A stretch of DNA of 45,266 bases from Salinisphaera orenii subsp. halophila YIM 95161 (GTDB lineage Bacteria; Pseudomonadota; Gammaproteobacteria; Nevskiales; Salinisphaeraceae). A program made the translations under genes and the position numbers. The stretch spans positions 1 through 45,266 of the forward strand of contig NZ_AYKF01000076.1 in the NCBI RefSeq assembly GCF_003732545.1, read 5' to 3'. Below, one piece after another: positions 37,080 to 45,266 of this stretch; position 1 is the first letter of the stretch, and the number at the start of each line of letters is the position of its first letter. The notes under the pieces were generated by a model. It was not told the DNA's origin. It did no database searches and saw only the letters and a program-made list of their open reading frames with translations.

Positions 37080-38738
37080 ATGACCCTGCTCCGCCTCGTG
37101 CTGCGCGACTACCGCGCGGCATTCATCGCCGTCATGGCCGCGAGCATCGCCAGCGCGGCGCTCGGCATCGGCGTGATCGCCTTCATCAACGCCCGCCTGA
37201 TCGAGACCGGCGACCACGCGCTGAGCGCCCTGCCCCAGTTCTTCGGCCTGATCGCGCTGCTGCTGGCGGTATCGCTGGCCGCCCAGCTGGGGCTGACCTG
37301 GCTGGGCCACCGCTTTGTGCTCGACCTGCGCACGCGCCTGGTCAAGCGCATCCTCGACACCGACATCGAGCGCATCGAGGCCCTGGGCAGCGCCTCGCTG
37401 CTGGCGAGCCTGTCGGCGGACATCCGCAACGTCACCATCGCCTTCGTGCGCCTGCCGGAGCTGGTCCAGGGCACCATCCTGACGGTCGCCAGCATCGCCT
37501 ATCTGGCCTGGCTGTCGCCCTCGATCCTGGTCGTCACCGCGCTCTGGATCGGCCTGACCATGGGAGTCGGCGCCTGGCTGGTCGCGCGGGTCTATCACCA
37601 TCTGCATCACGTGCGAGAGGCCGAGGACGCCCTCTACCGCGACTACGAGACCGTGATCGACGGCCGCAAGGAGCTGGGTCTGAACCGGGCGCGCGCCCGC
37701 CGGGTCTTCGAGGACGTCTTCCGCGCCAACGCCCGGCGCTATCGGCACCACATCGTGCGCTCGGACACCTTCCATCTGAGTGCGAACAACTGGGCGAACA
37801 TCATGATGCTGGGCGCCATCGGGGTGGTGTTCTTCCTGGCCAACGGCCTGGGCTGGGCGAGCACCTCGGTGGCGGCGACCTATGCCCTGACGATCCTGTT
37901 CCTGCGCACGCCCATGATCCAGGCGATCGGCGCCCTGCCGACGCTGATCAACGCCCAGGTCGCCTTCGACAAGCTCGCGACGCTGGCCCTGGCCGAGCAC
38001 GACCCCGCCTTCGACACCCCCGCGCCGCTCGACACCGACTGGCAGACCATCGAGCTCCGTGGCGTGACCTTCGCCTACGACCGCGAGGACGGCTTCGGCA
38101 TCGGCCCCATCGACCTCACGATCGAACGCGGCGAGCTGATCTTTCTCATCGGCGGCAACGGCAGCGGCAAGACCACGCTGGCCCGGCTGCTGACCGGGCT
38201 CTACCGCCCCACCGGCGGCACCATCCGGGTCGACGGCCGGCCGGTCGCCGAAGCCGAGCGCGGCGCCTATCGGCGCCTGTTCACGGCGGTGTTCACCGAC
38301 TTCCACCTGTTCGACACGCTGCTGGACGGCGCCGGCAATCCGGCCGATGCGGCATTCGTCGACGACTGGCGACACCGCCTCGGGCTGGACGCCAAGCTGA
38401 GTGTCGACGCCGATGCCCGCATCGCCGACACGGCGCTGTCCCAGGGCCAGCGCAAGCGTCTGGCCCTGATGCTGGCGCTGGCGGAGTCGCGCGACGTGCT
38501 GCTGCTCGACGAATGGGCGGCCGATCAGGACCCGGGCTTTCGCCGTGTGTTCTACCGCGACCTGCTGCCGATCTTCCGCGAACGCGGGCACACGGTCTTC
38601 GCCATCAGCCACGACGACAGCTATTTCGAGCACGCCGACCGCCTGCTCGAGATGCGCGCCGGCCGGCTGACCGAGCTGACCGGCGAGATGCGCCGCGCGG
38701 CGAGTGCGGATGCCGTGGCCCGGACCGGCGAACGCTAG
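37080..38738 (+). CDS. Cyclic-peptide/siderophore export ABC transporter (PvdE/SyrD type)
   Basis: A 552-residue half-transporter with an N-terminal six-helix membrane domain (about 1-300; [30 protein letters not shown] at the start) and a C-terminal ATPase. Walker A is [10 protein letters not shown] (about 358), the signature is [15 protein letters not shown] (about 452), Walker B is [15 protein letters not shown], and the switch His is in ISHDDSY. The helix-loop features [13 protein letters not shown] and [16 protein letters not shown], and the DEWAADQDP Walker B, are typical of the PvdE/SyrD/TIGR01194 group, which moves cyclic or lipopeptides such as pyoverdine precursors to the periplasm. 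It is co-transcribed with fhuF. No peptide synthetase is present in the window. A repeat element begins at the base after its TAG stop. Confidence 0.88.
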
Positions 38739-39027
38739 AGTCTGTTGACGTGTCCTGCGAGCGCTCTGTTTCCGACCGCACATCCTGTCCGGCAAGGCGC
38801 GAACCGCCGGCTCTGGGCGTGTCACGACCCAGGCCCGCAACGCCGGCCCCCTGGTCGTTTTTCATGGGCGGCCCGACCCATCGGAACAAACGCCCGGAAA
38901 ATCAGCGATACGACGGCAATCCAGCGTTCTAGCGTGCTTGTGCAGAATGACTGCACGGCGCGCTACTAAGCCTCGTCTTGCCGCACAACAGCGTTTGGCG
39001 CGGACGCGTACGAAACGTCAAAAGGCC
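38739..39027. repeat. Inverted-repeat element, copy 1 (MITE-like, ~289 bp)
   Basis: A non-coding element flanked by CTAG on both sides (38735-38738 and 39028-39031); the left CTAG includes the exporter's TAG stop. The left end AGTCTGTTGACGTGTCC and the reverse complement of the right end, GGCCTTTTGACGTTTCG, are imperfect terminal inverted repeats. It aligns along its whole length with the copy at 44896, sharing GCTCTGTTTCCGACCG, CATGGGCGGCCC, ACGACGGCAATCCAGCGTT and a 17-base hairpin GTGCAGAATGACTGCAC (38940-38956). The ends resemble IS5-family tips, but no transposase is inside. It fills most of the gap to fhuB; 39032-39118 holds nothing I can name. Confidence 0.82.
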
Positions 39028-39118
39028 CTAGCCGTCCGACGCGGCGGCGCGGTCGGCGGCACCCGCGGCCGATACCGGATCGTTCACCGCCCCGCGCGGT
39101 ATGCGTCTCAATGCCCGG

Positions 39119-41089
39119 CTAGAGCCGCCGGAGTCGCCACATGAAATAGCTGCCGCCGACCAGCGTGGCCACCAGCCCGGCCGGTATTTCATTGGGAAAC
39201 AGCAGCATGCGGCCGAGCCAGTCGGCGGCGATCATCAGCAGCCCGCCGAGCAGCGCCGCACCGACGAACTGCTCGCGCGCCCGGGCCAGTCCGAGCAGAC
39301 GGGCCATGTGCGGCGCCAGCAGGCCGACAAAGCTGAGTGGGCCGACCACCAGCGTCGCTCCGGCGGTCAGCACCGCCATGACCAGGAGCAGGATCAGGCG
39401 GCTCCAGGTGACGTTGACCCCGAGCGCGCGCGCCGTGGGCGCGCCCAGCGGCAGCAGATCCAGCCACACCACCAGCGGCCGGACCACCAGGAGCAGCAGC
39501 GCGGCGAGCACCGACACGGTCAGCGCCAGCGACAGATCGACGTAATAGGTGGTCCCCGACATCCAGGCCAGCAGCTGCTGGGTGCGCGGATCGCTGCCGG
39601 CGAGCACGATCTTGGAGATGGCGTCGAACAGAAACAGCACGCTGATGCCGGTCAACAGCACGCGCTCCGGCTCGAAGCCGCTGCGGGCGTTGAGTGCGAC
39701 CAGCAGCGCCAGCGTGAGCAGCGCCCCGACCACCCCGGCGCCCAGCATCGCGGGCGTGCCGGCCGTCGGCCAGACCAGCACCAGACCGAGCACGCCGATG
39801 GCGGTGCCGGCGCTGATGCCCAGCACTTCGGGACTCGCCATGGGGTTGGCCGAGACGCGCTGCACGATGGTGCCGGCCACCGCCAGCATCACGCCAGCCG
39901 CGCCCGCCGCGAGCACCCGCGCGCCCCGCCACGCCCCGGTCTCGGCCCAGGGCAGCTCGAACGGCCAGTTCCAGCCGTGCACGCCCTGACCGACGAGCAG
40001 CGCCACCACCACCATGGCCGCCATCGCCGCCAGCAGGCCAAGCAGGAGGCCGCCCGTGGCGGAACGGCGCGGCGCCGGGGCACCGGCGACCGCGGTCGGC
40101 GCCTCACGATGCATGTTCAGACGCGGGATCAGCCACAGCAGCAGCGGCGCACCCAGCGCCGCAGTGGTCGCCCCGGTCGGGATCAGCGCCGCGCCGTCCG
40201 CAGTCCACAGCTGGAGCAGCTGGTCGGTGACCGCCAGCAGCAGGGCGCCGAGCACCGGCGCCCAGACCAGCCGCGCCAGCAATCGGCGCGCGCCGGCCAG
40301 GCGCACGATCGACGGCGCCGCCAGACCGATGAAACCGATGACGCCCAGCTCCACGACCACCGCCGTGCTGGTGAACACGGCCACGCCCAGGCTCGCCGCG
40401 CGCAGCCAGGCCAGCGACACGCCCAGATTGCGGGCGTTGGTGTCATCCAGATCCAGCAGGGCCAGGGCGCGCGCCAGGGCGGCCGCGGCGACGCCGCCGA
40501 TCAGCAGCCGCGGCAGCAGATAGCCGACGCCGCCCCAGTTGTTCTGGGCCAGTGAACCGGCGCCCCAGATCATCATGCCCCGCAGGGCCTCCTGGTTGAA
40601 CAGCAGCAGCACGACCGCGAGCGAGCCGAGATAGAGGTTGACCACCAGCCCGGCGAGCACCACGACCGTCGGCGCCAGCGATCGTCGCCAGGCCAGCAGG
40701 AACACCAGCCCCATCGCCGCGGCGCCGCCGACGAACCCGACCACGCCGCGGGCGTGCAACATGAGCGCGGGGGCGAAAAGCGTGCCGAGCAGCAGGAACA
40801 GATGCACGCCGCTGACCACGCCGAGCGTGGTCGGCGCGGCCAGCGGGTTGCGCAGCGTCTGCTGCATGAGCACGCCGGCCAGGGCCAGCCCCGCACCGCC
40901 GAGCAGCGACGCCGCCAGCCGCGGCAGCCAGACGTGGCGGGCGAGAATGCCGGACAGCGATTCCCCGGGCGCCCAGAGCGCGGCCAGACCCGCCGGCGCG
41001 CTCTCGCGCAGCGTCAACACCGCGAGCACCGCGAGCACGACGGCGAACAGGCCGCACAGCCGGCCGGGGGTGAGCGCGGGCCGCGGCAT
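39119..41089 (-). CDS. fhuB: Fused Fe3+-siderophore permease (FhuB-like)
   Basis: A 656-residue inner-membrane permease in which two FecCD/BtuC-type halves are joined, as in FhuB (660 residues). The first half has LPRLAASLLGGAGLALAGVLMQQTLRNPLAAPTTLG, the coupling region and FIGLAAPSIVRLAGA. The second repeats the pattern with ARVLAAGAAGVMLAVAGTIVQRVSANPMASPEVLG and FVGLLAPHMARLLG. Each half has about ten helices. It imports ferric hydroxamates handed over by the binding protein, powered by the ATPase upstream. ATG 41089 overlaps the fhuD stop (ATGA), so fhuC-fhuD-fhuB form one coupled operon, transcribed leftwards. The frame upstream to 41185 overlaps fhuD and is not used. Confidence 0.93.
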   Translation of the reverse strand: MPRPALTPGRLCGLFAVVLAVLAVLTLRESAPAGLAALWAPGESLSGILARHVWLPRLAASLLGGAGLALAGVLMQQTLRNPLAAPTTLGVVSGVHLFLLLGTLFAPALMLHARGVVGFVGGAAAMGLVFLLAWRRSLAPTVVVLAGLVVNLYLGSLAVVLLLFNQEALRGMMIWGAGSLAQNNWGGVGYLLPRLLIGGVAAAALARALALLDLDDTNARNLGVSLAWLRAASLGVAVFTSTAVVVELGVIGFIGLAAPSIVRLAGARRLLARLVWAPVLGALLLAVTDQLLQLWTADGAALIPTGATTAALGAPLLLWLIPRLNMHREAPTAVAGAPAPRRSATGGLLLGLLAAMAAMVVVALLVGQGVHGWNWPFELPWAETGAWRGARVLAAGAAGVMLAVAGTIVQRVSANPMASPEVLGISAGTAIGVLGLVLVWPTAGTPAMLGAGVVGALLTLALLVALNARSGFEPERVLLTGISVLFLFDAISKIVLAGSDPRTQQLLAWMSGTTYYVDLSLALTVSVLAALLLLVVRPLVVWLDLLPLGAPTARALGVNVTWSRLILLLVMAVLTAGATLVVGPLSFVGLLAPHMARLLGLARAREQFVGAALLGGLLMIAADWLGRMLLFPNEIPAGLVATLVGGSYFMWRLRRL

Positions 41090-42021
41090 CAGGAGTCGGG
41101 CGTCCCGGCCACCTGCGGCGCGCTCAGCGCGTCGGCGAGCGCCCGCGCAAAGCGCGCCGCCGAGGGCAGCCCGCCGAAACTCCATACCGCCGGCAGGTCC
41201 AGCACCGGCCCCTGCCTCACGGCCGGCAGATGGTTCCAGAGCACGCTGCCATCGATCTCCTCGGCCACGCCGACCGGCATCGGATCGAGCACGGCCATGC
41301 GCGCGTCGTCGACCTCGGCCAGCCGCTCGAGCGAGACGAGCGCAAAGCCCCAGAAGGTGGTCGAGCCGGTCCAGGCATTGTCGAGACCCATGCGCGTCAT
41401 CACGTCGTCGAGCAGGCTGCCCTCGCCGTAGACGCGCACGTGACGCGCGTCGATGAACTGCACCACCAGCAGCCGCGGCGCCTCGGCCGGGACACGTTCG
41501 GCCGCCGTCTCGACGGTCCGACGCGTGTCCGCCACCAGCCGCTCGGCCGCGTCCGCGCGACCGACCAGCGCCCCCAGGCGGCGGGTCGACTCGACGGTGT
41601 TATCCCAGGCGCTGCCCTCGTGGTAGTAGACGTCGATGGTCTCCACCGGAGCGATCGCCTCGAGCCGCGCGCGCGAACTGGCATACATCGGCGTGATCGT
41701 GATCAAGTCGAGATCCAGCTGCGACATCAGCTCCATGTTCGGCTGCACCCGCAGGCCGAGTTCGCGCACCGAGTCGGGCACCGGCGGCACGCCCACCCAG
41801 TCCTGATAGGCATCGATCTGGGCCATGGCCACCGGCGGCGCGCCGAGCGCGATCAGCGTCTGCGCCTGCCCCCAGTCGATGGCGGCCACCCGCGGGCGGT
41901 CCCCGCCGTCGGTCGCGGCCGCCACGGCGCCGCAAAAAAACAGGGCCAGCCCGACGAGCCAGCCCGAAGTCCACGCGCGCCGCCGCCCGGCGGCGCTGCG
42001 AGCGCCTGCCCGCCGCGTCAC
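41089..42021 (-). CDS. fhuD: Ferric-siderophore periplasmic binding protein (FhuD-like)
   Basis: A 310-residue periplasmic binding protein of the type III fold. The signal region is an Arg-rich start then WLVGLALFFCGAVAAA. The mature protein shows RVAAIDWGQAQTLIALGAPPVAMAQIDAYQDW, LGLRVQPNMELMSQLDLDLITITPMY, IDVYYHEGSAWDNTVESTRRLGALVGR, the second lobe FIDARHVRVYGEGSLLDDVMTRMGLDNAW and WNHLPAVRQGPVLDLPAVWSFGGLPSA. The pattern matches FhuD, which binds hydroxamates such as ferrichrome. A charged Arg run at the extreme N-terminus could allow Tat export, though no canonical twin-Arg motif is seen. It lies between fhuC and fhuB with ATGA overlaps at both junctions. Confidence 0.92.
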   Translation of the reverse strand: MTRRAGARSAAGRRRAWTSGWLVGLALFFCGAVAAATDGGDRPRVAAIDWGQAQTLIALGAPPVAMAQIDAYQDWVGVPPVPDSVRELGLRVQPNMELMSQLDLDLITITPMYASSRARLEAIAPVETIDVYYHEGSAWDNTVESTRRLGALVGRADAAERLVADTRRTVETAAERVPAEAPRLLVVQFIDARHVRVYGEGSLLDDVMTRMGLDNAWTGSTTFWGFALVSLERLAEVDDARMAVLDPMPVGVAEEIDGSVLWNHLPAVRQGPVLDLPAVWSFGGLPSAARFARALADALSAPQVAGTPDS

Positions 42022-42785
42022 TGGACGACGGCGATGGGGTGGTTGTCCGCGGGGTGGGCCATCACGCTCATGCGGATGCCGTAGATGGCCTCGAGCGTCG
42101 TGTCCCGCATGAGTTCGTGCGGCGTGCCCCGGGCCAGCAGACGGCCGCCGCGCAGGGCCACGAGCTGATCGCAGTAGCGCGAGACCATGTTCACGTCGTG
42201 CAGCACGATGATCACGCCCAGCCCCAGCGAACCGGCGAGCTCGCGGATCAGCGCCAGCGTGTCGACCTGATGCGCGATATCCAGCGCCGACAGCGGCTCG
42301 TCGAGCAGCAGGAAACGGCTGCCCTGGGCCAGCAGCATCGCCAGCCAGACGCGCTGCTTCTCGCCGCCGGAGAGCGTGTCGACCATGCGCTCGGCGAGCG
42401 TGGCCGTGTGCGTCAGATCGAGCGCGCGATCGACCTGGCCCCGGTCTTCGGCGGTCATGCGCCCGAGCAGACCGCGCCAGGGATAGCGCCCGAAGGCGAC
42501 CAGTTCACGCACGGTCAGGCTGGTCGCCCCGGGCAGATGCTGGGGCAGATAGGCCACGTTGCGCGCGAACTCGCGGTCGCCCCAGGCCTGCACCGATCGG
42601 CCGTTGAGACAGACCTCGCCGCAGCTGGCGCACTGCTGGCGCGCGAGCAGCTTGAGCAGCGTCGACTTGCCCGAGCCGTTGTGGCCGATCAGGCCGTAGA
42701 CCAGTCCCTCGCGGAAACTCAGATCGTCGGCCTCCAGCAGACAGTGGCCGTTGACCTCGAAGCGGCAGGCGTTGAGTTCGAACAT
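42018..42785 (-). CDS. fhuC: Ferric-siderophore ABC ATP-binding protein (FhuC/FepC-like)
   Basis: A 255-residue ATPase of the iron-siderophore class. Walker A is GHNGSGKSTLLK, the Q-loop is YLPQHLPGATSLTVRELVAFGRYPW (the GRYPW motif typical of iron-complex ATPases), the signature is LSGGEKQRVWLAMLLAQ, Walker B is FLLLDEPLSALD and the switch His is in VLHDVN. It pairs with the fused permease downstream. The ATG is preceded by a short, AT-poor leader, and the promoter with its Fur-like palindrome lies 57 bp upstream. It is the first gene of the fhuCDB operon and overlaps fhuD by 4 bp. Confidence 0.93.
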   Translation of the reverse strand: MFELNACRFEVNGHCLLEADDLSFREGLVYGLIGHNGSGKSTLLKLLARQQCASCGEVCLNGRSVQAWGDREFARNVAYLPQHLPGATSLTVRELVAFGRYPWRGLLGRMTAEDRGQVDRALDLTHTATLAERMVDTLSGGEKQRVWLAMLLAQGSRFLLLDEPLSALDIAHQVDTLALIRELAGSLGLGVIIVLHDVNMVSRYCDQLVALRGGRLLARGTPHELMRDTTLEAIYGIRMSVMAHPADNHPIAVVQ

Positions 42786-42841
42786 GGGCTTCTCCAGGGC
42801 GCCCGCCGCGAACGCCGTCCGGCGGCGGGGAGCGCGCCACG

Positions 42842-42870
42842 AGAATAAACTGAATACGAATGCGTATCAA
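42842..42870 (-). promoter_or_regulatory. Fur-like promoter of fhuCDB
   Basis: On the minus strand, TTGATA (42870-42865) and TATTCT (42847-42842) form a good sigma-70 promoter with an exact 17-bp spacer. A 19-bp near-palindrome covers 42851-42869 (plus strand TGAATACGAATGCGTATCA) and lies across the -35 and spacer. It fits a degenerate Fur box and would repress fhuCDB when iron is plentiful. Confidence 0.72.
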
Positions 42871-43187
42871 AAAGAGCGGCGCTTCGGCAGGCGCCGCGTG
42901 AGACCGCGCTCGTGGTGCCTGACAACCGCACTGCAGGCCACACTGCGACGGTATCCGGCCCGCAGTGTGCGCCCCCGCGCGCCGGCGTGCGAGACATGGA
43001 ACCCCGCCGGGCGATTAGTCGGTCGGCGGCGCCCGCGCGTTTCGGCGGCGTGGCCCGCCCCGCCGAAGCCGACGACATCCGATATCGTCTTGCGTATCGG
43101 TGGCTTATGCAGGTACCGAACGCAGCGGCTCGCACTCGTCGCCCGCCGCGCTTAAGCTGCTGCGATCGCGAGCGGCAAGGAGACGGG
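42871..43187. other. Gap before the rhodanese gene
   Basis: No gene is supported here. The stretch 43007-43027 (CCGGGCGATTAGTCGGTCGG) resembles 12998-13018 at 18 of 21 positions. TTGCGTATCGG near 43091 and an AT-richer run are possible promoter parts of the rhodanese gene, but I cannot place -35 and -10 with confidence. Confidence 0.4.
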
Positions 43188-43586
43188 ATGTCGATTCTGC
43201 ACTGGACCCGATCACTGATCGACGGCGCAAAGGCGCCACCCGCCGACGACCCCACCGCCGTTTCCCTTGCCGGCGCCTACCGCGCCTATCGCGCGGGCGC
43301 GCGCTTCGTGGACGTGCGCCAGACGTTCGAATGGCGCGACGGCCATATTGCGGGATCGGTGCATCGGCCGGTCGACCAGATCGTGTCCGACCCGCGCCTG
43401 ACGGTGACCGCGGACGCCCTGATCGTGACCTACTGCGCGGCCGGCGCACGCGCGGCCCGGGCGGCGGCCGCACTCCGGGCCAACGGCTACGCCCGGGTGC
43501 GGGCCCTGGCCGTCGGCTATGGCGACTGGCGCCGTGCCGGCTATCCGGTGGAACGGCCCGAGCGGCGCGACCCGTCCGCGCGCTGA
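43188..43586 (+). CDS. Single-domain rhodanese (sulfurtransferase)
   Basis: A 132-residue rhodanese-domain protein. The family pattern is FVDVRQTFEWRDGHIAGSVHRPVDQI (about 40-65), followed by the active-site loop TYCAAGARA with Cys83 as the persulfide-forming residue, then ALRANGYARVRALAVGYGDWRRAGYPV. Such proteins pass sulfur from thiosulfate or persulfides to acceptors. No signal peptide is present, so it is cytosolic. ATG 43188 is preceded by a good AAGGAGA site. Open frame upstream is not family-like. No sulfur gene is adjacent, so the partner is unknown. Confidence 0.9.
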   Translation: MSILHWTRSLIDGAKAPPADDPTAVSLAGAYRAYRAGARFVDVRQTFEWRDGHIAGSVHRPVDQIVSDPRLTVTADALIVTYCAAGARAARAAAALRANGYARVRALAVGYGDWRRAGYPVERPERRDPSAR

Positions 43587-43732
43587 ACCGCGCAGCGGGC
43601 GCACGCGTGGCCCGTACTGGCGTTCGCCGACGGTCGGATGCGCCCCGCGCCCGAATCGCCGCCAGCCGCATGTCAACACGTGTTCACGCCGATTCACGGC
43701 CGCCGCGCGGGCCCCGCCATCGCGCCGCAACG

Positions 43733-43761
43733 TTGACGCTGGCGGTCTCGATACCGATATT
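43733..43761 (+). promoter_or_regulatory. Sigma-70 promoter of the KAS III gene
   Basis: TTGACG (43733-43738) and GATATT (43756-43761) are separated by exactly 17 bp, in the 280-bp gap between the rhodanese and the synthase. The predicted start near 43768 gives a leader of about 100 bases. The rest of the gap holds nothing I can name. Confidence 0.6.
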
Positions 43762-43866
43762 GTCGCTTGACCCGCGCCGCGGGTGCACCGCCCGAGGCCG
43801 GGCGGCGACCGAAAGTTCAGGGAGAGCCGCGTTGACCCGTCTGCCGCCGGAAAAGGACTGGAGCTG

Positions 43867-44895
43867 ATGCCCGCCGTCATCGACGCCATCGAATACATGC
43901 TGCCGGCGCGCACCGAATCGATCGAGGAGATCGCCGCACGCTTTCCCAACTGGCCGCTGGAGAAGATCGCCGAGAAGACCGGCATCCGCGCCCGCCACGT
44001 CGCCGCCGAAGACGAATGCGCCTCCGACTTCGGCGTGATCGCGGCCCGCCAGCTGTTCGAACGCACCGGCACCGATCCGGGCGAGATCGACTATCTGATC
44101 TTCTGCACCCAGACGCCGGACTATCTGGCCCCGACCACCGCCTGCCTGATCCAGGACCGGCTCGGCCTGGGCCGTCACGTCGGCGCGCTGGACATCAATC
44201 TCGGCTGCTCGGGCTACATCTACGCGCTGGGCGTGGCCAAGGCGCTGCTCGAGACCGGCCAGGCGAGCCGGCTGCTGCTGATCACCGCCGACACCTACAG
44301 CAAGTTCGTCCATCCGGGCGACAAGAGCGTGCGCGCGCTGTTCGGCGACGCGGCCGCGGCCACGCTGATGAGCAACCGCGGCGACGACGAGACCATCGGC
44401 CCATTCGTCTACGGCACCGACGGCTCGGGCGCCAACGATCTGATCGTGCCCACCAGCGGCATGCGCAAGCAGCCCTACAATCACAGCGCCGAGGAATACA
44501 CCGATCGCCACGGCAACACCCGCAGCGATCATCACATCTACATGAACGGCCGCGCGGTGATCGAATTCACGCTGCGCGAGGTGCCGAAGTCCATTCTGAC
44601 ACTGTGCGAGCGCGCCGGCCTGTCGCTGGACCAGATCGACGCCGTCATACCCCACCAGGCCAGCGCCACCGTGCTCAACGGCGTGCGCAAGAAGCTGGGC
44701 CTGCCCCCGGAGCGCTTCATCGTGTGCATGGAGGACATCGGCAACACCGTCTCCTGCAGCGTCCCGATCGCTCTCAAGCGCGCGGCCACCGAGGGCCGCA
44801 TCGGCCCGGGGGATCGCCTGCTGCTGGCCGGCTTCGGCGTCGGCCTGTCCTGGGGCGCGACCATCGTGCGCCTGCCGACGGACTTCCAGCGCTAG
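43867..44895 (+). CDS. Ketoacyl-ACP synthase III (FabH-like, stand-alone)
   Basis: A 342-residue thiolase-fold condensing enzyme with the KAS III triad: Cys114 in NLGCSGYIYAL, His263 in IPHQAS and Asn293 in EDIGNTVSCS. The opening EYMLPARTESIEEIAARFPNWPLEKIAEKTGIRARHVA and FGDAAAATLMS match FabH-type enzymes. It joins an acyl-CoA starter to malonyl-ACP. It differs from housekeeping fabH by its setting (no plsX, fabD or fabG around) and by a long insert GTDGSGANDLIVPTSGMRKQPYN, so it may be a specialised homologue for a secondary lipid, polysaccharide or signal. A repeat element begins at the base after its TAG stop. Confidence 0.88.
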   Translation: MPAVIDAIEYMLPARTESIEEIAARFPNWPLEKIAEKTGIRARHVAAEDECASDFGVIAARQLFERTGTDPGEIDYLIFCTQTPDYLAPTTACLIQDRLGLGRHVGALDINLGCSGYIYALGVAKALLETGQASRLLLITADTYSKFVHPGDKSVRALFGDAAAATLMSNRGDDETIGPFVYGTDGSGANDLIVPTSGMRKQPYNHSAEEYTDRHGNTRSDHHIYMNGRAVIEFTLREVPKSILTLCERAGLSLDQIDAVIPHQASATVLNGVRKKLGLPPERFIVCMEDIGNTVSCSVPIALKRAATEGRIGPGDRLLLAGFGVGLSWGATIVRLPTDFQR

Positions 44896-45204
44896 GGGCT
44901 GTTGAGGTTTCGTACGCGCGCTCTGTTTCCGACCGCCAATCGTAGCCGGTAAGGCGCGAGCTGCCGACTCTGGGCGTGCCACGACTCAGTCTCGCAACGC
45001 CGCCGGGCGCCCCTAGTCGATCTTTCATGGGCGGCCCAACCCTTCGGGACAAGCGCCCCAAAAATCAACGACACGACGGCAATCCAGCGTTGTCGCACGC
45101 TGGTGCAGAATGACTGCACGGCGCGCGCTACGCCTCGTTTTGCCGCCCATAGTTAATTTTTCAAGAAGCGCTTGGCGCGGCCACATACGGAACCTCAACA
45201 GGCC
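44896..45204. repeat. Inverted-repeat element, copy 2 (MITE-like, ~309 bp)
   Basis: The best-preserved copy. The left end GGGCTGTTGAGGTTTCGTA and the reverse complement of the right end GGCCTGTTGAGGTTCCGTA agree at 17 of 19 positions, so it has true terminal inverted repeats. It is flanked by CTAG (44892-44895, containing the synthase TAG stop) and CTTG (45205-45208), a possible decayed 4-bp target duplication. It aligns with copy 1 over its length and adds an AT-rich insert of about 20 bp near 45150-45170. The shared hairpin GTGCAGAATGACTGCAC is at 45103-45119. No transposase frame is inside. The last 62 bases of the window after it hold nothing I recognise. Confidence 0.85.
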
Positions 45205-45266
45205 CTTGTGTCTTGCCAGCGGGGTTGTTTAGCTAGCAGCCCCAGTGCCCGGCCGGGTGAGCATCC

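Follow-up and report, generated by a model that had tools for sequence, protein, structure and literature searches.

The window analysed here, i.e., the whole stretch of 45,266 nt of contig NZ_AYKF01000076.1 from Salinisphaera orenii subsp. halophila YIM 95161 (the host), holds two related non-coding elements, which we call copy 1 and copy 2. We read both as miniature inverted-repeat transposable elements (MITEs) of one Salinisphaera family that are mobilised by an IS5-family transposase (NF033580 type) at YTAR sites, and put the probability of this reading at about 0.9. The family belongs to a known kind of element; its insertion is well supported and an IS5 mover is likely. It is apparently an undescribed large set of ~270-310 bp non-coding mini-transposons. 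A literature search for a described Salinisphaera MITE found none, such that an earlier note on this DNA, which had called the elements possibly undescribed, stands as far as that search reached.

Two copies of one repeat family

As that note had claimed, the two copies align end to end. The ungapped alignments span 113 nt (82% identity) and 104 nt (88%), and gapped alignment gives 78% identity over 309 aligned positions. Read directly from the sequence, the terminal tips match at 17/19 positions in copy 2, which is the value reported before, and at 14/19 positions in copy 1. The open reading frame (ORF) list shows no ORF of at least 90 aa wholly within copy 1 or copy 2, in accordance with the earlier statement that neither contains a transposase.

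The ends of both copies were set by the alignment of family copies and by empty sites. Given these ends, both copies begin inside CTAG, which forms the left flank of both and the right flank of copy 1. The note had also listed CTTG as a flank. This does not hold as a target variant of copy 2: on contig C116, a copy of 83% identity is followed by the identical bases, and these belong to the end of an IS110-family element. The CTTG is thus the junction with that element and not a target.

A BLAST search of the host genome (3.79 Mb, 153 contigs) with copy 2 resulted in at least 42 matches, some of them fragments (best 40 of 86 candidates scored). The best host paralogue has E = 6e-104, and the repetition is far beyond chance. 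Matches are found in 14/14 Salinisphaera genomes with 1 to at least 43 per genome (best candidates scored), so it is not the case that only the two window copies exist. Element records were collected by tip similarity and a length limit of 200-345 bp, such that decayed or odd copies are under-counted; among them, 102/109 measure 250-319 bp and form two main classes. Common to the copies are terminal inverted repeats of ~20-27 bp. Beside CTAG, the elements carry GGGCCTGTTGACGTTTCGTACGAG or a variant at one end and the inverse at the other. Given this size and the inverted tips, the elements do not fit the repetitive extragenic palindromes (REPs) or their mosaic combinations (BIMEs), as REPs are small palindromes of 20-40 bp (PMC3733652).

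Insertion sites and target

Five sites that are filled in the host are empty in its close relative S. orenii (G003), one identified by gene comparison and four by joined flanks, where the empty state in G003 may be ancestral or result from loss. The beta-ketoacyl-ACP synthases III of host and G003 are 99% identical, and the G003 gene ends in CTAG without an element in the next 1.2 kb; the site of copy 2 is thus empty there. The site of copy 1 is also filled in G003, the two being 1 substitution apart, and many further host copies have orthologous filled sites among those G003 stretches that were chosen for holding copies.

The joined-flank queries to G003 comprised 17 host elements without an orthologue among these stretches; hence the result must not be read as a rate. 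Sorted manually, 4 queries are contiguous in G003 (empty) and 9 are separated by about the element length (filled). For the rest, 1 shows flanks ~445 bp apart, 1 is a one-sided match and 2 are unmatched. Query 2 reads CTAG when empty (G003) and CTA-element-TAG when filled, i.e., a clean TA duplication. Insertion boundaries are thus seen at empty orthologous sites, whose absence the earlier note had named as speaking against insertion.

Among 114 element records, the left flanks are most often CTAG (52), CCAG (18) and TTAG (9), and the right flanks CTAG (55), CTGG (15) and CTAA (8). CCAG to the left and CTGG to the right are therefore the commonest flanks after CTAG, as if a neighbouring CTAG mutates by transitions. 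From this pattern we infer a TA duplication at YTAR that is followed by transitions.

Candidate IS5-family parents

Based on PF01609 matches, we identified six insertion sequences (ISs) of 858-866 bp in congeners (L183, L197, L180, L169, L170, L182). Their tips match those of the MITEs over ~20 bp (e.g., CTAGGGCGTGTTGAGGTTTC or CTAGGGCCTGTTGATGTTTC), and all of them lie in YTAG. They share with the MITEs the outer ~20 bp and the CTAG target and differ from them in carrying a transposase gene, which is a full 267-aa ORF in L183 and L197 and broken by stops or split frames in some others. The L183 protein belongs to IS5 family NF033580 (E = 7e-74). Relatives of at least 60% identity occur in G010, G001, G006 and G008, with fragments in G004 and G012. 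Autonomous ISs with the same tips and target are found in G010 and G001, and ISs with TTGCCG tips in G006 and G008.

We also compared the tip variants of the MITEs with those of the ISs, for which locus-to-genome labels were assigned by hand and two elements stayed unlabelled. In G010, whose IS has the tips TTGATG and TTGAGG, one or the other is present on 53/68 MITE tips. In G001, TTGAGG, the tip of its IS, is found on 7/10 tips, and 6/10 start with GGGCGTG, as does its IS. TTGCCG, present in the ISs of G006 and G008, is on 8/8 tips in G009, 6/6 in S. japonica and 7/12 in G011.

Two kinds of candidate for an autonomous parent were rejected. Contig C153 with its two distant ends holds two separate copies beside ordinary-looking genes. 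Tip pairs more than 450 bp apart (n=9 in 168 sequences) each hold MITE pieces and none an IS5 transposase match. Tip pairs 621-632 bp apart at L090 2738-3358, L107 1578-2199 and L123 3217-3848 likewise consist of MITE pieces without an IS5 transposase match and may be tandem or nested copies.

Several observations weigh against mobilisation by such a transposase. No autonomous IS with MITE tips was found in the host, whose 153-contig assembly may hide a collapsed or missing IS: a manual reading of the list of 83 host tip sites gave no inward tip pair 0.6-3 kb apart, and the host holds only transposase relatives of 36-42% identity (38% for the best-scoring one). Host tips are mixed (n=68: TTGACG 11, TTAACA 9, TCAACA 8, TTGAGG 6, TTGATG 4, TTGCCG 3, others), as are those of G003, and among the PF01609 transposases of the genus no IS was found for TTAACA or TCAACA tips. 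Both G002 tips are TTGAGG, yet G002 is without PF01609 match, and the agreement in G001 comes from few elements (5). Past ~20 bp, nothing convincing is common to MITE and ISs, such that this comparison does not show descent by internal deletion. Finally, CTAG is found on both sides of only 18/98 elements with long flanks, and queries 1, 5 and 9, i.e., 3 of the 4 joined-flank empty sites, differ in one or both flanks.

The earlier proposal of an IS5-type miniature element moved in trans therefore stands with regard to the copies, their tips, the empty sites, the CTAG target and IS5 members in congeners. Candidate parents were found only outside the host, and we infer the mobilisation in trans by an IS5-family transposase. 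Similarly, the full-length IS with the same tips, which the note had proposed as confirmation, was not found in the host assembly but is present in other Salinisphaera.

Insertion at stop codons

According to our model, the IS5-family transposase (NF033580 type) would recognise the outermost ~20 bp, which read GGGCCTGTTGANGTTTC or a variant of it. The element would enter YTAR sites, CTAG in most cases, with duplication of TA. As it starts with G and ends with C, TAG would be rebuilt on both sides of the insertion; a gene ending there, or convergent genes on one CTAG, would therefore keep their stop codons. Stop codons would thereby provide a harmless niche for the element. Copies would decay after insertion, and an IS110-family element would use resident ones for its own insertion at the junction of YTAG and GGGYSTGT.

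In both window copies, the left CTAG contains the stop codon of the upstream gene. The respective features are listed in Table 1.

Table 1. Coordinates of the two MITE copies and adjacent features within the window.
Feature	Position	Strand	Remarks
MITE copy 1, 291 bp	38738..39028	+	left tip GAGTCTGTTGACG..., right tip ...CAAAAGGCCC; from copy alignment
Left TA of putative target duplication, copy 1	38736..38737		inside CTAG 38735-38738
Right TA of putative target duplication, copy 1	39029..39030		inside CTAG 39028-39031
MITE copy 2, 311 bp	44895..45205	+	matching tips (17/19)
Left TA of copy 2	44893..44894		inside CTAG with ketoacyl synthase stop codon
ABC exporter gene (NF007813; also cyclic-peptide export TIGR01194)	37080..38738	+	TAG stop is the TAG of copy 1's CTAG
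FhuB-type permease gene, downstream of copy 1	39119..41089	-	gene call and family match
Beta-ketoacyl-ACP synthase III gene	43867..44895	+	TAG stop is the TAG of copy 2's CTAG
IS110-family IS end on right tip of copy 2; runs off contig	45206..45266	+ (probable, from G003 and G009 copies)	NF033542 by G009 copy

Genes were called with our own codon-usage script, and orthologous copies from closely related genomes were counted individually. On this basis, 49/92 elements (400-bp flanks) border on the TAG stop of a called gene, 4 of them on both sides, and 0/92 elements lie inside a called gene, where insertions would be lost to selection. Control CTAG sites elsewhere (n=427) comprise 100 stops, 105 sites within genes and 222 intergenic sites, i.e., 100/322 of those outside genes are stops. 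The difference between elements and controls is significant both for stop vs. intergenic (p = 1.3e-4) and for stop vs. all (p = 4.5e-8). An earlier, cruder stop test gave 46/98 elements vs. 108/449 controls.

In S. orenii, the site of copy 2 belongs to two convergent genes at once: within a single CTAG (L224 2610-2613), the gene for the ketoacyl synthase overlaps one for a sigma-54 response regulator that runs towards it. In the host, each of the two genes retains a TAG stop. The 3' end of the host regulator is on contig C112 and reads to TAG in a CTAG there, with last bases unlike those of S. orenii. C112 itself breaks off in the opposite end of the IS110 element (72/72 bases, CTAG included). 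The right-hand CTAG of copy 2 would thus be the one at this end of C112, on the far side of the IS110 element, the link between C76 and C112 being suggested by synteny. In the case of the IS in G010, the gene for glutamate racemase ends in the left CTAG and that for PdxY in the right one, and therefore a single shared CTAG likely preceded the insertion.

Folded interior and alternative explanations

The interior of the element consists of two branched inverted-repeat arms, and the fold of copy 2 is strong (z = -2.9 on one strand and -5.4 on the other). An 87-pair structure on 31 short copies shows standard pairs in 90.0% of cells, and 41/87 pairs are changed on both sides between copies; shuffled data give 21.5 such pairs and slid controls 21-25. 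Here, the structure was drawn from the same alignment it was tested on, and the poor-fit rows L143:5663 and L149:434 were kept.

Next, we compared 21 orthologous copies of host and G003. Of their substitutions, 293/422 are at paired positions, which equals chance given that 4264/6148 sites are paired. Pairs changed on both sides that still pair number 15, with 18.6 double-hit pairs expected at random. The 15 comparisons with at most 30 substitutions show the same, i.e., 101/145 substitutions are at paired positions vs. 69.3% of sites, and the 20-bp tips are not spared either (27/145 in ~13.7% of sites). Since substitutions hit paired sites as often as chance, the fold is not retained in resident copies; it would be retained in moving lineages. 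Six of the orthologous comparisons (L004/L267, L023/L301, L003/L271, L021/L274, L072/L298, L029/L299) have 34-67 substitutions despite matching flanks, which points to exchange for a different copy or to a second insertion.

The palindromic structure and the symmetry of the tips may also stem from template switching during replication instead of selection, be it by the host or for transposition, which is compatible with the IS5-mediated mobility proposed above. The central hairpin loop (A1 columns 148-156 of the 31-copy alignment) reads TTC in 40/109 elements and its reverse complement GAA in 23/109, suggestive of a loop flipped by template switching. Homogenised arms and inverted spacers are published marks of this process (PMC8604942, PMC8794818). 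On the other hand, few paired changes are found in resident orthologous copies, and the covariation comes from a structure tested on its own alignment. We therefore consider template switching as the source of the structure rather unlikely. Somewhat easier to imagine, although still doubtful, is that the branched palindromic interior is needed for mobility and not by the host. Pairing would then be renewed in founding copies and lost in resident ones, the terminal G and C would preserve TAG, and the family would have adapted to (shared) stop codons as its safe harbour.

A further explanation would be a host-adapted repeat of the REP, ERIC or BOX kind, whose copies are kept as RNA hairpins that terminate or stabilise transcripts at gene 3' ends. 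About half of the copies do adjoin stop codons, and the strong interior fold with its covarying pairing between copies would fit such a role. Against this, pairing is not preserved in place in the 21 host/G003 orthologous copies, which speaks against a host function of the folded interior, and Rfam gives no match at gathering thresholds for positions 38400-45266. This explanation is thus disfavoured and we regard it as quite improbable. Least credible is a mover outside the IS5 group, e.g., an unrelated TA-targeting transposase with convergent tip likeness, which would fit the missing host parent, the TTAACA and TCAACA tips without IS and the ~20-bp tip as sole convincing sequence in common, but not the coincidence of tips, CTAG target and genus nor the agreement of tip variants with the resident IS in G010 and G001.

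An IS110-family element at the MITE tip

A search with the end sequence of the element adjoining copy 2 identified 10 IS110 ends (G000 2, G003 1, G001 2, G009 5), and in 10/10 the same end is at a GGGYSTGT tip. For 8/10 ends, the MITE is supported by BLAST, and YTAG precedes 7/7 full copies. Besides the window end, IS110 copies adjoin the outer tip of a MITE, or that of an IS5-like end, at L262 2268-3467, L257-L261, L263 and L264. The host MITE L046 is without IS110, whereas its G003 orthologue has IS110 between CTAG and GGGCCTG, such that the flanks are 1468 bp apart compared to 267 bp in the host. Therefore, IS110 either entered a site that already held the MITE or left it. IS4321 and IS5075 are IS110/IS1111-type elements that target the terminal inverted repeats of the Tn21 family; their target sequence is unlike the one found here.

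Range of the family

A core-pattern scan of named genomes gave 84 stretches, all titled Salinisphaera except for the rows of Endozoicomonas sp. G2_2 (L095, L115, L118, L135, L140, L142, L148, L163). The title of this public record looks wrong. We also searched 85 genomes of the order, scoring the best 8 candidates per genome. Outside the genus, 2/71 genomes match, namely G084 (E = 3e-26) and, weakly, G052 (E = 9.5e-5); the remaining 69 show no match among these candidates. The respective loci (G084:C70:256-465 in another genus of the same family, G052:C14 and C18 in a more distant genome) may have arrived by transfer or be old copies. No match to the family was found in the plasmid and phage collections searched.

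Relation to known systems

The nearest systems found are MITEPsy1 of Pseudomonas syringae and QMITE2 of Coxiella burnetii. Like the Salinisphaera family, MITEPsy1 is non-coding and IS5-type (table entry 'IS5?'), inserts after CTAG or YTAA, and has repeats that resemble the full-length IS5-family ISPsy2 (PMC3189936). With 100 bp, it is shorter than our elements, most of which measure 250-319 bp, and the strain concerned holds 6 copies, as opposed to dozens of matches in many of the genomes here. Furthermore, its tip sequence is another one, and the reported target duplication is 4 nt, whereas TA is the best reading for our family (PMC3189936). QMITE2 occurs with IS1111 (PMC5896051; reviewed in PMC10969869). 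Its direct repeats are 7-11 nt of variable sequence (PMC5896051, PMC10969869), and the IS1111 target is the REP within QMITE2, whereas the IS110-family element takes the outer tip junction here (PMC5896051).

Implications

Several host contigs end in or beside family copies, and thus the family probably helps to break short-read assemblies. Beyond this, Salinisphaera provides a natural series of candidate parents, tips agreeing with those of the parent in two species, filled and empty sites in close relatives, and decaying resident copies. The series makes two questions testable: how a transposon can insert harmlessly into overlapping stop codons, and whether it is host function or mobility that lies behind the covarying hairpins of mobile repeats. 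Finally, the IS110-family passenger with its apparently fixed natural target would suit bridge-RNA work.

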